Shown here piece by piece: positions 29,963 to 35,920 of a DNA stretch of 64,000 bases. This DNA comes from Acuticoccus sediminis (GTDB lineage Bacteria > Pseudomonadota > Alphaproteobacteria > Rhizobiales > Amorphaceae): assembly GCF_003258595.1 (NCBI RefSeq), contig NZ_QHHQ01000005.1, positions 372,001 through 436,000 on the forward strand, in the 5' to 3' direction. How positions within the stretch are numbered: the stretch's first letter is position 1; the number at the start of each line of letters is the position of its first letter. The position numbers were made by a program, and so were the translations under genes. Under the pieces are notes generated by a model that worked only from the letters and a program-made list of their open reading frames with translations, was not told where the DNA came from and did not search any database.

Positions 29963-30508
29963 TCAGGTCGGATCCGACCCGCGGGTGATCGCGGCGATCC
30001 CGGTGCGGGAGACCTCGACCAGCCCCACCGAGGCCATGAGCGCGATGAAGCGCTCGATCTCGGCCGTGGCGCCGGTGATCTCGAACACGAAGGAGGTCAG
30101 CGTCGCGTCGATGGTGCGCGCGTCGAACGCCTGCGCCAGGCGCAGCGCCTCGAGCCGCTGTTCGCCGCGCCCGGACACCTTTACGAGCGCCAGCTCCCGC
30201 TCCACCGCGTCGCGCATGTCGGCGGTGAGATCGGCGACGCGGTGGACCGGGACGAGCCGGGCGAGCTGGTTCTTGATCTGATCGATCACCATGGGCGTGC
30301 CCGTGGTGACGATGGTAATTCGCGACAGGCTGCGCTCGTGCTCGGTCTCGGAGACGGTGAGCGAGTCGATGTTGTAGCCGCGGCCGGAGAACAGGCCGAT
30401 CACGCGGGCGAGGACACCGGGCTCGTTGTCCACGAGCACCGTGATGGTGTGCTTCTCCTTCGCCTCCTCGGGTCGCAATGCCGGCGCGATTCCGATGGGT
30501 TGGTTCAT
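29963..30508 (-). CDS. ilvN: Acetolactate synthase small (regulatory) subunit
   Basis: A 181-residue regulatory subunit of the first common enzyme of valine, leucine and isoleucine synthesis. The N-terminal ACT domain (about 20-95) has HTITVLVDNEPGVLARVIGLFSGRGYNIDSL, in which branched-chain end products bind; the C-terminal domain follows. The ATG at 30508 has GAGGGAAG upstream. The catalytic gene ilvB normally abuts ilvN, but here a DUF167 gene and about 520 bp lie between them, so ilvN may have a promoter of its own and not share the ilvB attenuator fully. Confidence 0.95.
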   Translation of the reverse strand: MNQPIGIAPALRPEEAKEKHTITVLVDNEPGVLARVIGLFSGRGYNIDSLTVSETEHERSLSRITIVTTGTPMVIDQIKNQLARLVPVHRVADLTADMRDAVERELALVKVSGRGEQRLEALRLAQAFDARTIDATLTSFVFEITGATAEIERFIALMASVGLVEVSRTGIAAITRGSDPT

Positions 30509-31356: not shown

Positions 31357-33138
31357 TCAGACCAGCGCCCGGCCGACGTCCTCCAGCGCGTCCTCGACCT
31401 CCTCGACCTCGACGTCGTCGCGCGAGGCCAGCAGGATCTCGTTGTGCGCCTTGCCCGAGGGGATCATCGGGAAGCAGTTGGTAAGGTTCGCCACGCGGCA
31501 ATCCATCAGCACCGGACCCGGGTGGGCGATCATCTCGGCGATCGCGTCATCGAGCTCGGCCGGGTCCTGCACCGCCATGCCCTTCCAGCCGTACGCCTTC
31601 GCCAGCATCTCGAAGTCCGGCAGCGCGTCGGAGTAGGAGTGCGACAGGCGGTTGCCGTGGTTGAGCTGCTGCCACTGGCGCACCATGCCCATGTGCTGGT
31701 TGTTCAGGATGAACACCTTCACCGGCAGGTCGTACTGCGTCGCCGTGCCCAGCTCCTGGATGTTCATCTGGACCGACGCGTCGCCGACGATCGACAGCAC
31801 CAGCGAACCGGGATGCGCGATCTGCGCGCCGATCGCCGCCGGCAGGCCGTAGCCCATGGTGCCGAGGCCGCCGGAGGTCATCCAGCGGTTCGGCTTGTCG
31901 AAGCCGTAGAACTGCGCCGCCCACATCTGGTGCTGGCCGACGTCGGTGGTGACGTAGGTGTCCTTGTCCTTCGTCAGCTCGAAGAGGCGCTCGATCGCCT
32001 CCTGCGGCATGATCACGTCGGCGCGCGTCTCGTAGGCGAGCGACTTCTTCGCGCGCCAGGTGTTGATGTCGGCCCACCAGTCCTTCAGCCGCGACTTGTC
32101 GTGCAGGCCCGTCTCGGACCACACGCGGACCATGTCCTCCAGCGCGTGCGCGGCGTCGCCGATGATCGGCAGGTCCACCTTGACGTTCTTGTTGATCGAC
32201 GAGGGATCGATGTCGATGTGGATCTTGCGGCTGCCGGGCGAGAAGGCGTCGATGCGGCCGGTGATGCGGTCGTCGAAGCGCGCGCCGATGCAGATCATCA
32301 GATCGCACCCGTGCATCGCGAGGTTCGCCTCGTAGGTGCCGTGCATGCCCAGCATGCCCAGCCACTGCGGGTGGCTCGCCGGCATGGCGCCGAGGCCCAT
32401 CAGCGTGGAGGTGACGGGGAAGCCGGTCATGTCCGCCAGCTCGCGCAACAGGTGCGAGGCCGCGGGGCCGGAATTGATGAGGCCGCCGCCGGTGTAGAAG
32501 ACCGGCCGGCTCGCCGCCTTCATCAGCGCCACGGCCTGGCGGATGCCGACCATCTCCGGCCGCACCTTCGGCTGGTACGTCTTGTGGCTGGCGGCGCGCG
32601 GCGGGTTGTACGGCCCGGTCGCGATCTGCACGTCCTTCGGGATGTCGATGACGACGGGACCCGGACGGCCAGAGGTCGCGACGTAGAAGGCCTCGGACAG
32701 GATGCGCGGCAGGTCCTCGACGCGGCGGACCAGGTAGTTGTGCTTGGTACACGGGCGGGTGATGCCGACCGTGTCGCACTCCTGGAAGGCGTCGGAGCCG
32801 ATGAGGTGCGTCGGCACCTGGCCGGTGATGCACACCATGGGAATGGAATCGAGCATCGCGTCGGTGAGCGCGGTGACGACGTTGGTGGCGCCCGGACCGG
32901 ACGTCACGAGCACGACGCCGGGCCGACCGGTCGAGCGGGCATAGCCCTCGGCCATGTGGCCGGCGCCCTGCTCGTGACGCACCAGGATGTGACGGACGTC
33001 TTCCTGCTGGAAGATCTCGTCGTAGATCGGCAGGACCGCGCCGCCGGGATAGCCGAAGATCGTGTCGACGCCGTGGTCCTTCAGCGCCTCGATCACCATT
33101 TGCGCACCGCTCATGCGGCCTGAGTTGCGCTCGTCCAT
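31357..33138 (-). CDS. ilvB: Acetolactate synthase large (catalytic) subunit
   Basis: A 593-residue ThDP/FAD enzyme condensing two pyruvates (valine, leucine) or pyruvate with 2-oxobutyrate (isoleucine). The catalytic Glu is E56 in [14 protein letters not shown]; the ThDP/Mg motif is [15 protein letters not shown] followed by [12 protein letters not shown]. The start at 33138 was chosen because upstream in-frame codons fall in the attenuator region. The gene is preceded by a leader-peptide attenuator (33190-33325). The name ilvI would be equally fitting; with one small subunit in the window, IlvB is the catalytic partner of IlvN. Confidence 0.95.
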
Positions 33139-33189
33139 TCTTAGTCTCTCCGCTCCGCCGTGCCGGCGTACCGCCTGACGGTCCAAAGG

Positions 33190-33217
33190 GCCCGCTCAGG
33201 TCCGGTGGAGAGCGGGC
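33190..33217 (-). repeat. Hairpin between the ilvB attenuator and ilvB start
   Basis: GCCCGCTC (33190-33197) and GAGCGGGC (33210-33217) form a perfect 8-bp stem with a 12-base loop. It lies just downstream of the attenuator's T-run on the ilvB transcript, 50 bases before the ilvB start, with no U-tract of its own. It could shield the 5' end of the ilvB message or block the ribosome site region. Confidence 0.5.
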
Positions 33218-33220
33218 ATG

Positions 33221-33293
33221 AAAAAAGGCCCCGTGAGGGACCTTGAACCGCGCACCACCGTTCCCGAGCCCTGGTCAGACTCTGGTGGTGCGC
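33221..33293 (-). terminator. Transcription attenuator of ilvB (pause hairpin plus terminator)
   Basis: On the minus strand, GCGCACCACC (33284-33293) pairs perfectly over 10 bp with GGTGGTGCGC (33250-33259); this first hairpin begins inside the leader-peptide codons. Then AAGGTCCC (33237-33244) pairs with GGGGCCTT (33225-33232) around TCAC, with one G-U pair, followed by a run of six T (33221-33226). This is the usual pause-hairpin and terminator pair of an amino-acid attenuator. I do not see an equally strong alternative (antiterminator) pairing between the two. Confidence 0.85.
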
Positions 33294-33325
33294 CCCGCTA
33301 CGATAAGGATGAGGGTCGTGCCCAT
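33275..33325 (-). CDS. ilvB leader peptide (branched-chain amino-acid sensor)
   Basis: A 16-codon open frame, MGTTLILIVAGRTTRV, with ribosome site GAGGA five bases before its ATG. It contains Leu-Ile-Leu-Ile-Val in a row, the three end products of the pathway that ilvB starts. Its last codons lie inside the first arm of the pause hairpin. Ribosome stalling at these codons when charged Leu, Ile or Val tRNA is scarce would free the downstream sequence and prevent termination. The frame is too short for ordinary gene calling. Confidence 0.85.
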   Translation of the reverse strand: MGTTLILIVAGRTTRV

Positions 33326-33522
33326 GCCGTTCCTCGTTGATCGTGGGCGTTGCCTTATCACGCGCCAGAGTGCCGCGCAATGCTGCTTTGCCGATTGGCG
33401 GGCGAAGCCGGAAGGCCCCGCGCCAGCCCCGCCCCGCGGCGCATGGCTGACCTGATCGTCGCACCGTGATCGTCCGTGCCGGAAGCGGATTACCTTTCAA
33501 CGAGTTGAAAGAGGATCCCCCT

Positions 33523-34101
33523 GTGAGCGCCGAGACCATCGCGGAACGCCGACCCTTCGTCTTCGACAGCCCGGACGGCTTCGGAATTGTCTCGCGCGCA
33601 CTGCACTGGGGGATGGCCGCGCTGTTCGCCTGGCAGTTCACCAGCGCGGCCTTGCGGGCGCTGGCGCCGGATTCGGCCGCCCGGACCTTCTTCTGGGCAT
33701 ACCACGTCGACATCGGCGCGACGATTTTCGTCCTCGCGATCGCGCGCGGCCTCTGGGGCCTCCTCAACGCGCCCCATCGGCCGGCGGAGGGCGACTCCAC
33801 GTTCGAGCGGATCGCCGCCCAGTTCGGACAGCTCGCGCTCCATGCGCTGATGATCGTGGTGCCGCTGCTCGCCATCCTGCGCTCCATCGGCAACGACCGC
33901 GCCTTCACGGTGTGGGGCGTCGAGCTGGTGGCGGCGGGCGGCGAGAAGAACGCGGCGCTGGTCGCGGCCGGCAACGCCGCGCACGGCCTCCTCGGCTGGG
34001 CGCTGGCGCTGCTGATCGCCGGGCACATCGTGATGGCGCTGTTCCATCACCTCGTCAGGCGCGACGCCACGCTGGCTCGCATGCTCGGCGGCCCGCGCTA
34101 G
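33523..34101 (+). CDS. Cytochrome b561 family membrane protein
   Basis: A 192-residue di-haem b561 protein with four hydrophobic segments. Candidate haem ligands are in SRALHWGMAALF (first helix), FFWAYHVDIGATIF (second), QLALHALMIVVPLLA (third) and NAAHGLLGWALALLIAGHIVMALFHH (fourth). Such proteins shuttle electrons from quinol to periplasmic acceptors or superoxide. The GTG at 33523 is preceded by GAGGA at seven bases; the frame is open further up to 33466 but without a site. It is convergent with miaA and divergent from ilvB, whose attenuator region lies upstream. Confidence 0.85.
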   Translation: MSAETIAERRPFVFDSPDGFGIVSRALHWGMAALFAWQFTSAALRALAPDSAARTFFWAYHVDIGATIFVLAIARGLWGLLNAPHRPAEGDSTFERIAAQFGQLALHALMIVVPLLAILRSIGNDRAFTVWGVELVAAGGEKNAALVAAGNAAHGLLGWALALLIAGHIVMALFHHLVRRDATLARMLGGPR

Positions 34102-34125: not shown

Positions 34126-35043
34126 CTAGGTGGAGGCCGGTCCAACGGGGCCGACGGCGAGGTCCGGCACCTCCCCCGGCGCCAGGCGGTGCCAGTCGGC
34201 GAAGCGGTGGCGGAACCACGTCTCCTGCCGCTTTGCGTACTGGCGGGTCCGGTTGACGGCGTCGGCGACCGCTTCCTCGCGCTGGACGAGCCCCATCGCG
34301 TGGGCGGAGAGCTGGGCGACGCCGATCGCCTTCATCGCGGGCAGCGCCGGGTCGAGGCGCCGCGCGGTAAGTGCCACCGCCTCCTCGACCGCGCCCTCGT
34401 CCATCATCGCGTCGAATCGGTCGGCGATGCGCTGGCGCAACAGATCGCGCGCCGGCGCAACGACGAAGCGGGCGACACCCGGCCCCGGCGGCAGGACCGG
34501 CGGCGTCCGCTCCTCCTGCCAGTCGGTGAGCGATCGTCCGGTCGCGTCCACCACCTCGAGCGCGCGCACGATGCGCTGCGGGTCCGACGGGCGGAGCCGC
34601 GCGGCGGTCGCCGGATCGCGCGCGGCAAGGACCCCGTGCAGCGCCTCCGGCGTCTCCGCGGCCTGCGCCTCCCGCCAGCGGCGGCGCACCGCCTCGGGGA
34701 TCTCCGGCATCGGCGACAGCCCGGTGGTGAGCGCGGCGAGGTAGAGGCCCGTGCCGCCGACGATGATGGGCACCCTCCCCTCGGCGCGGGCCGCCGCGAT
34801 CGCCGCCCCGGCCTCGCCGAGCCAGCGGGCAACGGAGGTCGCCTCGGCGGCATCGACGTGGCCGTAGAGCCGGTGGGGGACGCGCGCCTCGTCCTCGGCG
34901 CCCGGCCGGGCGGTGAGGACGCGCAGGTCGCGGTAGACCTGCATCGAATCGGCATTGATGATCGTGCCGCCGAGCCGGTCTGCAATGGTGAGGGCCAGAT
35001 GAGACTTGCCGGACGCCGTCGGACCGGCGATGAGGACGGCCAT
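34126..35043 (-). CDS. miaA: tRNA dimethylallyltransferase
   Basis: A 305-residue enzyme that prenylates A37 in tRNAs reading UNN codons. The P-loop is GPTASGKS at residues 7-14, followed by INADSMQVYRDL and, further on, GGTGLYLAALTTGL and TRQYAKRQETWFRH. The ATG at 35043 is favoured; a GTG at 35055 is in frame. The start codon overlaps that of the divergent serB: both ATGs lie within CATG. That leaves each promoter and ribosome site within the other gene's coding sequence. Confidence 0.94.
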   Translation of the reverse strand: MAVLIAGPTASGKSHLALTIADRLGGTIINADSMQVYRDLRVLTARPGAEDEARVPHRLYGHVDAAEATSVARWLGEAGAAIAAARAEGRVPIIVGGTGLYLAALTTGLSPMPEIPEAVRRRWREAQAAETPEALHGVLAARDPATAARLRPSDPQRIVRALEVVDATGRSLTDWQEERTPPVLPPGPGVARFVVAPARDLLRQRIADRFDAMMDEGAVEEAVALTARRLDPALPAMKAIGVAQLSAHAMGLVQREEAVADAVNRTRQYAKRQETWFRHRFADWHRLAPGEVPDLAVGPVGPAST

Positions 35044-35920
35044 GATAGTCGTCACACTCGTCGCCCCCGGTCCCCTTTCGCCTCAACTCGTCGCGTCGCT
35101 GGTCGGCACGCTCGGCGCCCACCGGGCCGACCGCGTCGACGAGCAGGCCACCGACATCTATGTCGAAGGCGACCGCAGGGCGATCCGCGAGACGGTCTTT
35201 ACCCACATCCACGACGCGCCGGTGGATGCGATCGTGCAGCCGGCGCGGACGCGGCGCAAGCGCCTCCTCATCTCCGACATGGACTCCACGCTGATCGGCC
35301 AGGAGTGCATCGACGAGCTGGCCGCCGTGCACGACCTGAAGCCTCGGGTGGCCGCGATCACCGAGCGCGCCATGCGCGGCGAGCTCGCCTTCGCCGACGC
35401 GCTGATCGAGCGGGTGAAGCTCCTGACGGGGATCCCCGAGTCCTCGATCGAGACCCTCCTCGACACCGTGATCACGCCCTCGCCGGGCGCGGCCGAGATG
35501 ATCGCCGTCGCCAAACGGAACGGGATCCGCACGGTGCTGGTATCAGGCGGTTTCATGCACTTCGCCGAGCCCGTGGCCGAGCGGCTCGGGATCGACGCGG
35601 CGTTCGCCAACCGCCTGATCGCGGCGGACGGCATACTGACGGGAGCCGTCGCCCAGCCGATCCTGGGCGCCGACGAGAAGAAGGTGCGCCTCCTCACCGA
35701 ATGCGAGGCGCTCGGCATCACGCCCGAGGACGCAATCGCGCTCGGCGACGGGGCCAACGATCTCGCCATGGTGGAAACGGCGGGACTGGGCATCGCATAC
35801 CGGCCGAAGCCGATCCTGGCAGCCGCGGCGGACGGGGTGCTGCGGCACTGCGATCTCACGGCGGCACTCTACGCCATGGGTATCGCACCGAATACGGAAA
35901 GTTCAGTATCCAGTGTTTAG
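35042..35920 (+). CDS. serB: Phosphoserine phosphatase
   Basis: A 292-residue HAD phosphatase for the last step of serine synthesis. The nucleophile motif is DMDSTLIGQE with D79 and D81; motif II is VLVSGGFMHF, and the Mg motif is ALGDGANDLAMV. An ACT-like N-terminal part covers about residues 1-70. Ribosome site GAGGA lies five bases before the ATG, inside miaA. At the 3' end its stop overlaps by 3 bp the end of a small minus-strand gene. Confidence 0.95.
   Translation: MIVVTLVAPGPLSPQLVASLVGTLGAHRADRVDEQATDIYVEGDRRAIRETVFTHIHDAPVDAIVQPARTRRKRLLISDMDSTLIGQECIDELAAVHDLKPRVAAITERAMRGELAFADALIERVKLLTGIPESSIETLLDTVITPSPGAAEMIAVAKRNGIRTVLVSGGFMHFAEPVAERLGIDAAFANRLIAADGILTGAVAQPILGADEKKVRLLTECEALGITPEDAIALGDGANDLAMVETAGLGIAYRPKPILAAAADGVLRHCDLTAALYAMGIAPNTESSVSSV

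Follow-up and report, generated by a model that had tools for sequence, protein, structure and literature searches.

The segment preceding ilvB in Acuticoccus sediminis very probably functions as a ribosome-mediated transcription attenuator of ilvB(N). It is located on the minus strand of the window (the whole stretch of 64,000 nucleotides that was analysed), where the attenuator is followed by ilvB, which starts at 33138, and then by ilvN/ilvH. The element brings together a leader frame with codons for products of the pathway (Leu-Ile-Leu-Ile-Val) upstream of a biosynthetic gene, an early stem (P1) which overlaps the leader codons in the window as well as in the ten sequences compared from the genus and family, and an intrinsic terminator between the leader and ilvB (Table 1). 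The conservation of these features is strong evidence for an attenuator. The leader-peptide attenuator proposed by the first-pass annotation is thus supported by conserved codons, a covarying P1, the terminator, the gene order and the precedent of Caulobacter.

The element belongs to a known kind, since attenuation of ilvBN is documented in Caulobacter and an ilvB leader peptide in alphaproteobacteria. An excerpt of one paper (PMC4117421), citing Tarleton et al. 1994, describes attenuation of Caulobacter ilvBN through a leader frame; the attenuator of Caulobacter crescentus resembles that of the window in belonging to an alphaproteobacterium and in combining a leader that has Ile/Val codons with a rho-independent terminator. 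An "ilvB leader peptide" that Vitreschak et al. 2004 had described for alphaproteobacteria is named by Corbino et al. 2005 (PMC1273637, likewise an excerpt); it belongs to the same gene and the same class of bacteria as the leader of the window. As far as the literature searched shows, two points may be new: the identity of the element with the Rfam family RF02502, and the missing antiterminator.

Table 1. Features of the ilvB leader and the genes that follow it; coordinates are those of the window.
Feature	Coordinates	Strand	Basis
Promoter-like stretch, low confidence: TTGCGC (33380-33375), 17 nt, TAAGGC (33357-33352)	33352..33380	-	
Ribosome site GAGGA of the leader peptide, plausible	33331..33335	-	sequence
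Leader peptide frame MGTTLILIVAGRTTRV	33275..33325	-	ATG at 33325, 16 codons, TGA 33277-33275
Control codons CTC ATC CTT ATC GTA (Leu-Ile-Leu-Ile-Val)	33299..33313	-	sequence, codon counts
P1 5' arm (region 1), GCGCACCACC	33284..33293	-	folding; conservation; covariation
Inner stem 5' arm, inside P1	33277..33282	-	folding; genus comparison
Inner stem 3' arm, inside P1	33266..33271	-	folding; genus comparison
P1 3' arm (region 2), GGTGGTGCGC	33250..33259	-	folding; conservation; covariation
Intrinsic terminator stem-loop (regions 3 and 4), AAGGTCCC/GGGGCCTT	33225..33244	-	terminator scan; pair covariation
U-tract of terminator, six T	33221..33226	-	sequence
Second hairpin, GCCCGCTC (33217-33210) with GAGCGGGC (33197-33190), 3' of U-tract	33190..33217	-	
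ilvB, acetolactate synthase large subunit, controlled gene	31357..33138	-	NF006581, 1083.6 bits, cut-off 974
ilvN/ilvH, acetolactate synthase small subunit	29963..30508	-	NF008864, 212.2 bits, cut-off 119

Anatomy of the leader

The first-pass annotation had described a 16-residue frame with its own ribosome site, a perfect 10-bp hairpin starting inside its codons, an 8-bp terminator stem with six T, a Leu-Ile-Leu-Ile-Val run matching the pathway products and a further 8-bp hairpin before ilvB. As can be seen in Table 1, all of these were found. The GAGGA motif is separated from the leader ATG by five bases; this ribosome site is weaker or missing in several relatives. In the case of the Rhizobiaceae (L031, L034, L038 and similar loci), a TTATCA- or TAACA-like element, noticed by eye, ends a few bases 5' of the leader ATG, so that the transcript translated there may be leaderless.

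P1 consists of 10 bp with no mismatch, its 5' arm lying within leader codons 11-14, and the 6-bp inner stem encloses most of the leader stop codon. A helix as strong as P1 was obtained in 5 of 2000 dinucleotide shuffles of the segment that runs from the last Val codon to the terminator. Folding of the RNA from 33325 to 33138, which had been suggested as a check, returned both P1 and the inner stem, but the overall stability of these 188 nt was less convincing (z -1.72, with 10 of 200 shuffles as good). Being only mildly more stable than its shuffles, the leader offers weak evidence when a single sequence is folded.

The terminator stem contains 8 pairs, including one G-U, and carries the loop TCAC; since it overlaps the run of six T, the first two T are part of the stem. 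A RUUGCC-like sequence follows the U-tract in 59 of 72 ilvB leaders and in 7 of 87 other terminator-like sites of the same loci, as scored with one loose pattern; the corresponding site in the window (33220-33215, minus strand) reads CAUGCC. Every one of the 8 genus genomes keeps the core of the second hairpin, CCCGCTC/GAGCGGG, around loops of 7-21 nt; this core was not found in the two family-mates. Two roles considered for this hairpin were rejected: as a general part of ilvB leaders it reached p <=0.05 in 14 of 72, 8 of them belonging to the genus, and as a dispersed repeat it was met at 12 places in the genome vs 25 for a reversed control pattern.

A scan of the region upstream of the attenuator for the sigma-70 consensus found no promoter. 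The -35 TTG of the putative promoter listed in Table 1 is seen again, by eye, in several members of the genus and family. The promoter region falls within a gap of 140 bp that is bordered on its other side by a divergent cytochrome b561-like gene (33466-34101, plus strand; 46.3 bits against a family cut-off of 170); miaA (34126-35055, minus strand) lies beyond this gene.

Conservation among ilvB loci

The loci compared came from 41 whole genomes (that of the window and 40 relatives; 30 among the best matches were taken as loci) and from a further 80 named loci. Two of the resulting 110, L095 and L102, had no upstream DNA, leaving 108 to be scanned for a short L/I/V-rich frame with a terminator upstream of ilvB. 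This plan was detected in 76 loci. Three hits (L030, L071, L104) were removed as spurious by eye and L047 because of a wrong T-run, so that 72 leaders were analysed; in these, the distance between the ATG and the U-tract is 92-113 nt. The scan did not find the plan in 32 of the 108 loci, comprising 10 of Pelagibacter type (judged by title), 7 from relatives and 15 of mixed origin, and among them L062, L063 and L065 possess a leader frame and failed the terminator filter.

Closer to the window, an L/I/V-rich leader, P1 and the terminator are present in 8 of 8 genomes of the genus (its own included) and in 2 of 2 family-mates, with leader peptides such as MATTLILIVAGRTTRV, MATKLIIVVRRIIGVC, MTANLIIVVAERATRVH and MKHSLLVIRTRIARTG. 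The codons and stems on whose persistence in close relatives the first-pass annotation had staked its claim are therefore kept, and covariation, which it had suggested as a check, was observed as well. Over the ten sequences from genus and family, P1 is paired in 100 of 100 cells, and three of its pairs have changed on both sides, a number reached by 7 of 500 shuffles. The covariation score, the number of paired cells and the number of cells changed on both sides were each reached by 0 of 500 shuffles; the number of further pair types is unexceptional (152 of 500). When the partner was shifted by 1-3 columns, pairing fell to 14-54%.

Over the 72 leaders, P1 was taken in each case as the best helix returned by a search. 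The four pairs at its foot, mostly GCGC with GCGC, form in 72 of 72 leaders, which is partly so by construction because P1 was picked in this way; the positions next to the foot exchange AU, CG, GC and UA. In a mutual-information screen of 81 anchored columns and 72 rows (effective number 52), which takes no account of the tree, the top signals were terminator and P1 pairs.

Codon choice differs between the leader runs and the ilvB bodies that follow at each locus. Of the 145 Val codons in the runs, 85 are GUA, vs 1.8% of 3043 in the bodies; CUU accounts for 52 of 98 Leu codons vs 7.5% of 3057, and AUU for 48 of 96 Ile codons vs 13.2% of 2681. The placement of rare codons at the control positions is compatible with a sensing role.

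Relationship to the Rfam family RF02502

No match to Rfam was obtained for the window at the curated cut-off. At a laxer threshold, the family RF02502, "Rhizobiales sRNA Atu_C8", aligned with 33210..33326 of the minus strand over its full length (model positions 1-122 of 122; 46.8 bits, E 1.2e-8), short of its gathering score of 50 bits. This was the sole match; no other riboswitch, T-box or leader family of Rfam was found at E up to 1 in 33050-33450. Three genus-mates, G002, G004 and G007, exceed the cut-off with 52.4, 50.6 and 50.3 bits, respectively.

Among the 41 genomes, matches with E no higher than 0.1 occur in 27, and 8 contain one over the cut-off. When the places were compared, 27 of the 29 matches proved to lie directly upstream of ilvB on the same strand, and the two located elsewhere score 27.7 (G009:C4) and 25.1 bits (G033:C2). 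A search of 14 control genomes yielded one match, in E. coli, below the cut-off. Scores of 91-123 bits were found in 18 of 34 loci tested (4 of 14 in one set, 14 of 20 in another); these high scorers are leaders of Rhizobiaceae and near kin, e.g. Agrobacterium L038 with 121 bits. At E up to 0.01, 11 of the 14 loci of one set matched, the exceptions being L017, L070 and L074. The loci that pass, L031 and L038 for instance, carry the match directly before ilvB and share the anatomy of the window. In genome G031 (locus L024) there are two ilvB-like genes, on contigs C1559 and C1049, each with a strong match (119.5 and 115.3 bits).

The element of the window hence resembles Atu_C8 in its full-length match and in its place before ilvB, and differs in that the family is filed as an sRNA gene rather than a leader and in that the window scores below the cut-off. 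The family was presumably derived from an sRNA screen in Agrobacterium. The simplest reading of these data suggests that the Atu_C8 "sRNA" is the terminated ilvB leader. A literature search found no paper equating Atu_C8 or RF02502 with the ilvB leader, which is no proof that none exists.

Search for an antiterminator

The attenuators of E. coli thr, leu, trp and his share with the window a leader peptide with control codons, an early stem and a terminator. For the first three of these, region 3 is trapped as long as the ribosome is halted on the control codons and becomes free once the stop codon is reached. To compare these states, the RNA was truncated just before region 4, all of it up to a point 12 nt from the start of the A-site codon was hidden, and the pairing of region 3 with upstream sequence was computed. 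Seven leaders served as controls: the four of E. coli and three trpE leaders from the order of the window. The latter (L115, L116, L117) contain runs of WWW or WWWW, and their antiterminator profiles are those of the textbook. Five frames containing WW had been considered; L131 and L137 were set aside because about 620 bases separate them from a match that starts inside the profile, i.e. they probably lie within a gene.

At the 12-nt offset, region 3 pairing with the ribosome on the run and at the stop was 0.80 and 0.00 for thr, 0.60 and 0.01 for leu, and 0.62 and 0.00 for trp, and the trpE leaders gave 0.72/0.15, 0.60/0.16 and 0.92/0.47. The two states of his were not separated (0.64 vs 0.63), which was scored as a miss. 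The window differs from the E. coli pattern: region 3 was paired to 0.30 on the run and 0.49 at the stop, unlike textbook 2:3 pairing, and the means of the 58 ilvB leaders outside the Rhodobacterales were 0.23 and 0.48. A textbook antiterminator, defined as an excess of run over stop above 0.3, was recorded in 1 of these 58 leaders and in 2 of 14 from Rhodobacterales vs 6 of 7 controls. With offsets of 9 and 15 nt the counts were 0 and 1 of 58, 2 and 1 of 14, and 4 and 5 of 7 controls.

In the covariation screen, the best signal between region 3 and upstream columns (at least 60% complementarity) was 0.107, vs 0.31-0.81 for the true-stem pairs listed; this negative result is only suggestive, because no tree underlies the screen. 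Neither approach thus revealed a conserved pairing between region 3 and a segment upstream of it. The textbook antiterminator is not seen in ilvB leaders, although the method detects such a switch in the same order of bacteria. The earlier remark that no antiterminator pairing is obvious in the window now extends to 72 leaders with positive controls, and the word "complete", which had been applied to the attenuator, is unearned, for the switching step was not found among them.

One further candidate and one method were discarded. The RF02502 model draws a pair between the sequence that extends from the Leu/Ile/Val codons up to P1 and the sequence after the U-tract; such pairing is no better for cognate than for mixed partners: in the 58 leaders own pairs gave -4.12 and mixed pairs -4.07 kcal/mol, with 79 of 200 mixings as low, and the 14 Rhodobacterales gave 156 of 200. 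Full-length equilibrium folding was useless as a predictor of termination because it set the terminator close to 1 for the E. coli controls as well.

Proposed mechanism and alternatives

The amino-acid response and the direction of control would follow, by analogy, those of Caulobacter ilvBN. The polymerase would transcribe the leader with a ribosome translating the 16-residue peptide at the same time. When Leu, Ile and Val are plentiful, the ribosome would reach the stop codon inside P1, P1 could not stand, and the terminator would stop the transcript about 105 nt past the first base of the leader. When they are short, the ribosome would halt on the CTC-ATC-CTT-ATC-GTA run just before P1, so that P1 could fold and the polymerase would continue into ilvB.

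The computed states of P1 are consistent with such a course of events. At the 12-nt offset, P1 was formed to 0.71 with the ribosome on the run vs 0.00 at the stop (means of 58 leaders), the latter because a ribosome at the stop covers the 5' arm of P1. In the window, P1 was formed to 0.88-0.99 at this offset when the ribosome halted on Leu or Ile codons. With the ribosome halted on the last Val codon, P1 formation was 0.23 (mean of 58) and 0.06 (window) at 12 nt, and 0.66 and 0.88, respectively, at 9 nt; given the low values at 12 nt, shortage of Val might act unlike that of Leu or Ile.

In the Rhodobacterales, a group of 14 loci assigned from record titles, P1 and the terminator overlap in 14 of 14: 2-5 nt of the P1 3' arm belong to the terminator foot as well, at a cost to the terminator of 3.9 to 16.3 kcal/mol. 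The overlap is firm in 12 of them (3.9 to 9.7), as the stem of L088 and L089 is short and absent from the best fold. Henriciella (L083), placed in the Rhodobacterales by older taxonomies, stands outside this group and shows no overlap. In 57 other leaders, including the window, P1 and the terminator do not overlap and entail no cost, and in the window they are compatible; L022 overlaps by one base, at 0.7. Hence, P1 itself could be the antiterminator in the Rhodobacterales, as a two-hairpin switch of the right sign; a switch of that type does not apply to the window, where the two hairpins do not overlap.

A broader model can be put forward only tentatively, and we would not be surprised to see it fail: alphaproteobacterial ilvB leaders may be two-hairpin attenuators without a 2:3 antiterminator, in which P1, folding only during a halt, antiterminates, in the Rhodobacterales through 2-5 nt of the terminator foot and in the group of the window by another route, the terminated product being the Atu_C8 RNA.

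One alternative is the four-region scheme of the E. coli attenuators, in which a halted ribosome covers region 1, so that regions 2 and 3 pair and thereby prevent the terminator. In the folding test this scheme is followed by E. coli thr, leu and trp and by the three trpE leaders from the order of the window. Against it, a comparable run excess is scarce among ilvB leaders, region 3 shows no strong covariation with region 2, and the control codons of the window stop 5 nt short of region 1. We regard the four-region scheme as unlikely here. Chance adjacency of the three parts (short frame, stem, terminator) agrees with the fold energy of the whole stretch, which lies only mildly beyond that of shuffles, but not with the retention of the element through compensatory changes in the genus and its presence before ilvB in many other loci, and can practically be dismissed.

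The leader might instead serve mainly as the source of a trans-acting small RNA, perhaps also of a peptide, like rnTrpL/peTrpL of Sinorhizobium, with attenuation being secondary. Rfam files the same RNA as an sRNA, trans functions of an attenuator RNA and of its leader peptide are published for trpL of S. meliloti (as far as the excerpts of that literature go), and the RUUGCC-like sequence after the U-tract is enriched in ilvB leaders, although the window itself has CAUGCC. The position of nearly all RF02502 matches directly before ilvB and the retention of pathway codons both point to a role in cis, and a mainly trans-acting function therefore appears quite improbable.

The plan of the element recurs in many alphaproteobacteria, yet the switch seems unlike the textbook drawing, and a clear bench test is possible. 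If the Rfam sRNA entry really is an ilvB leader cut short, this would matter for genome annotation and for sRNA screens in the Rhizobiales.
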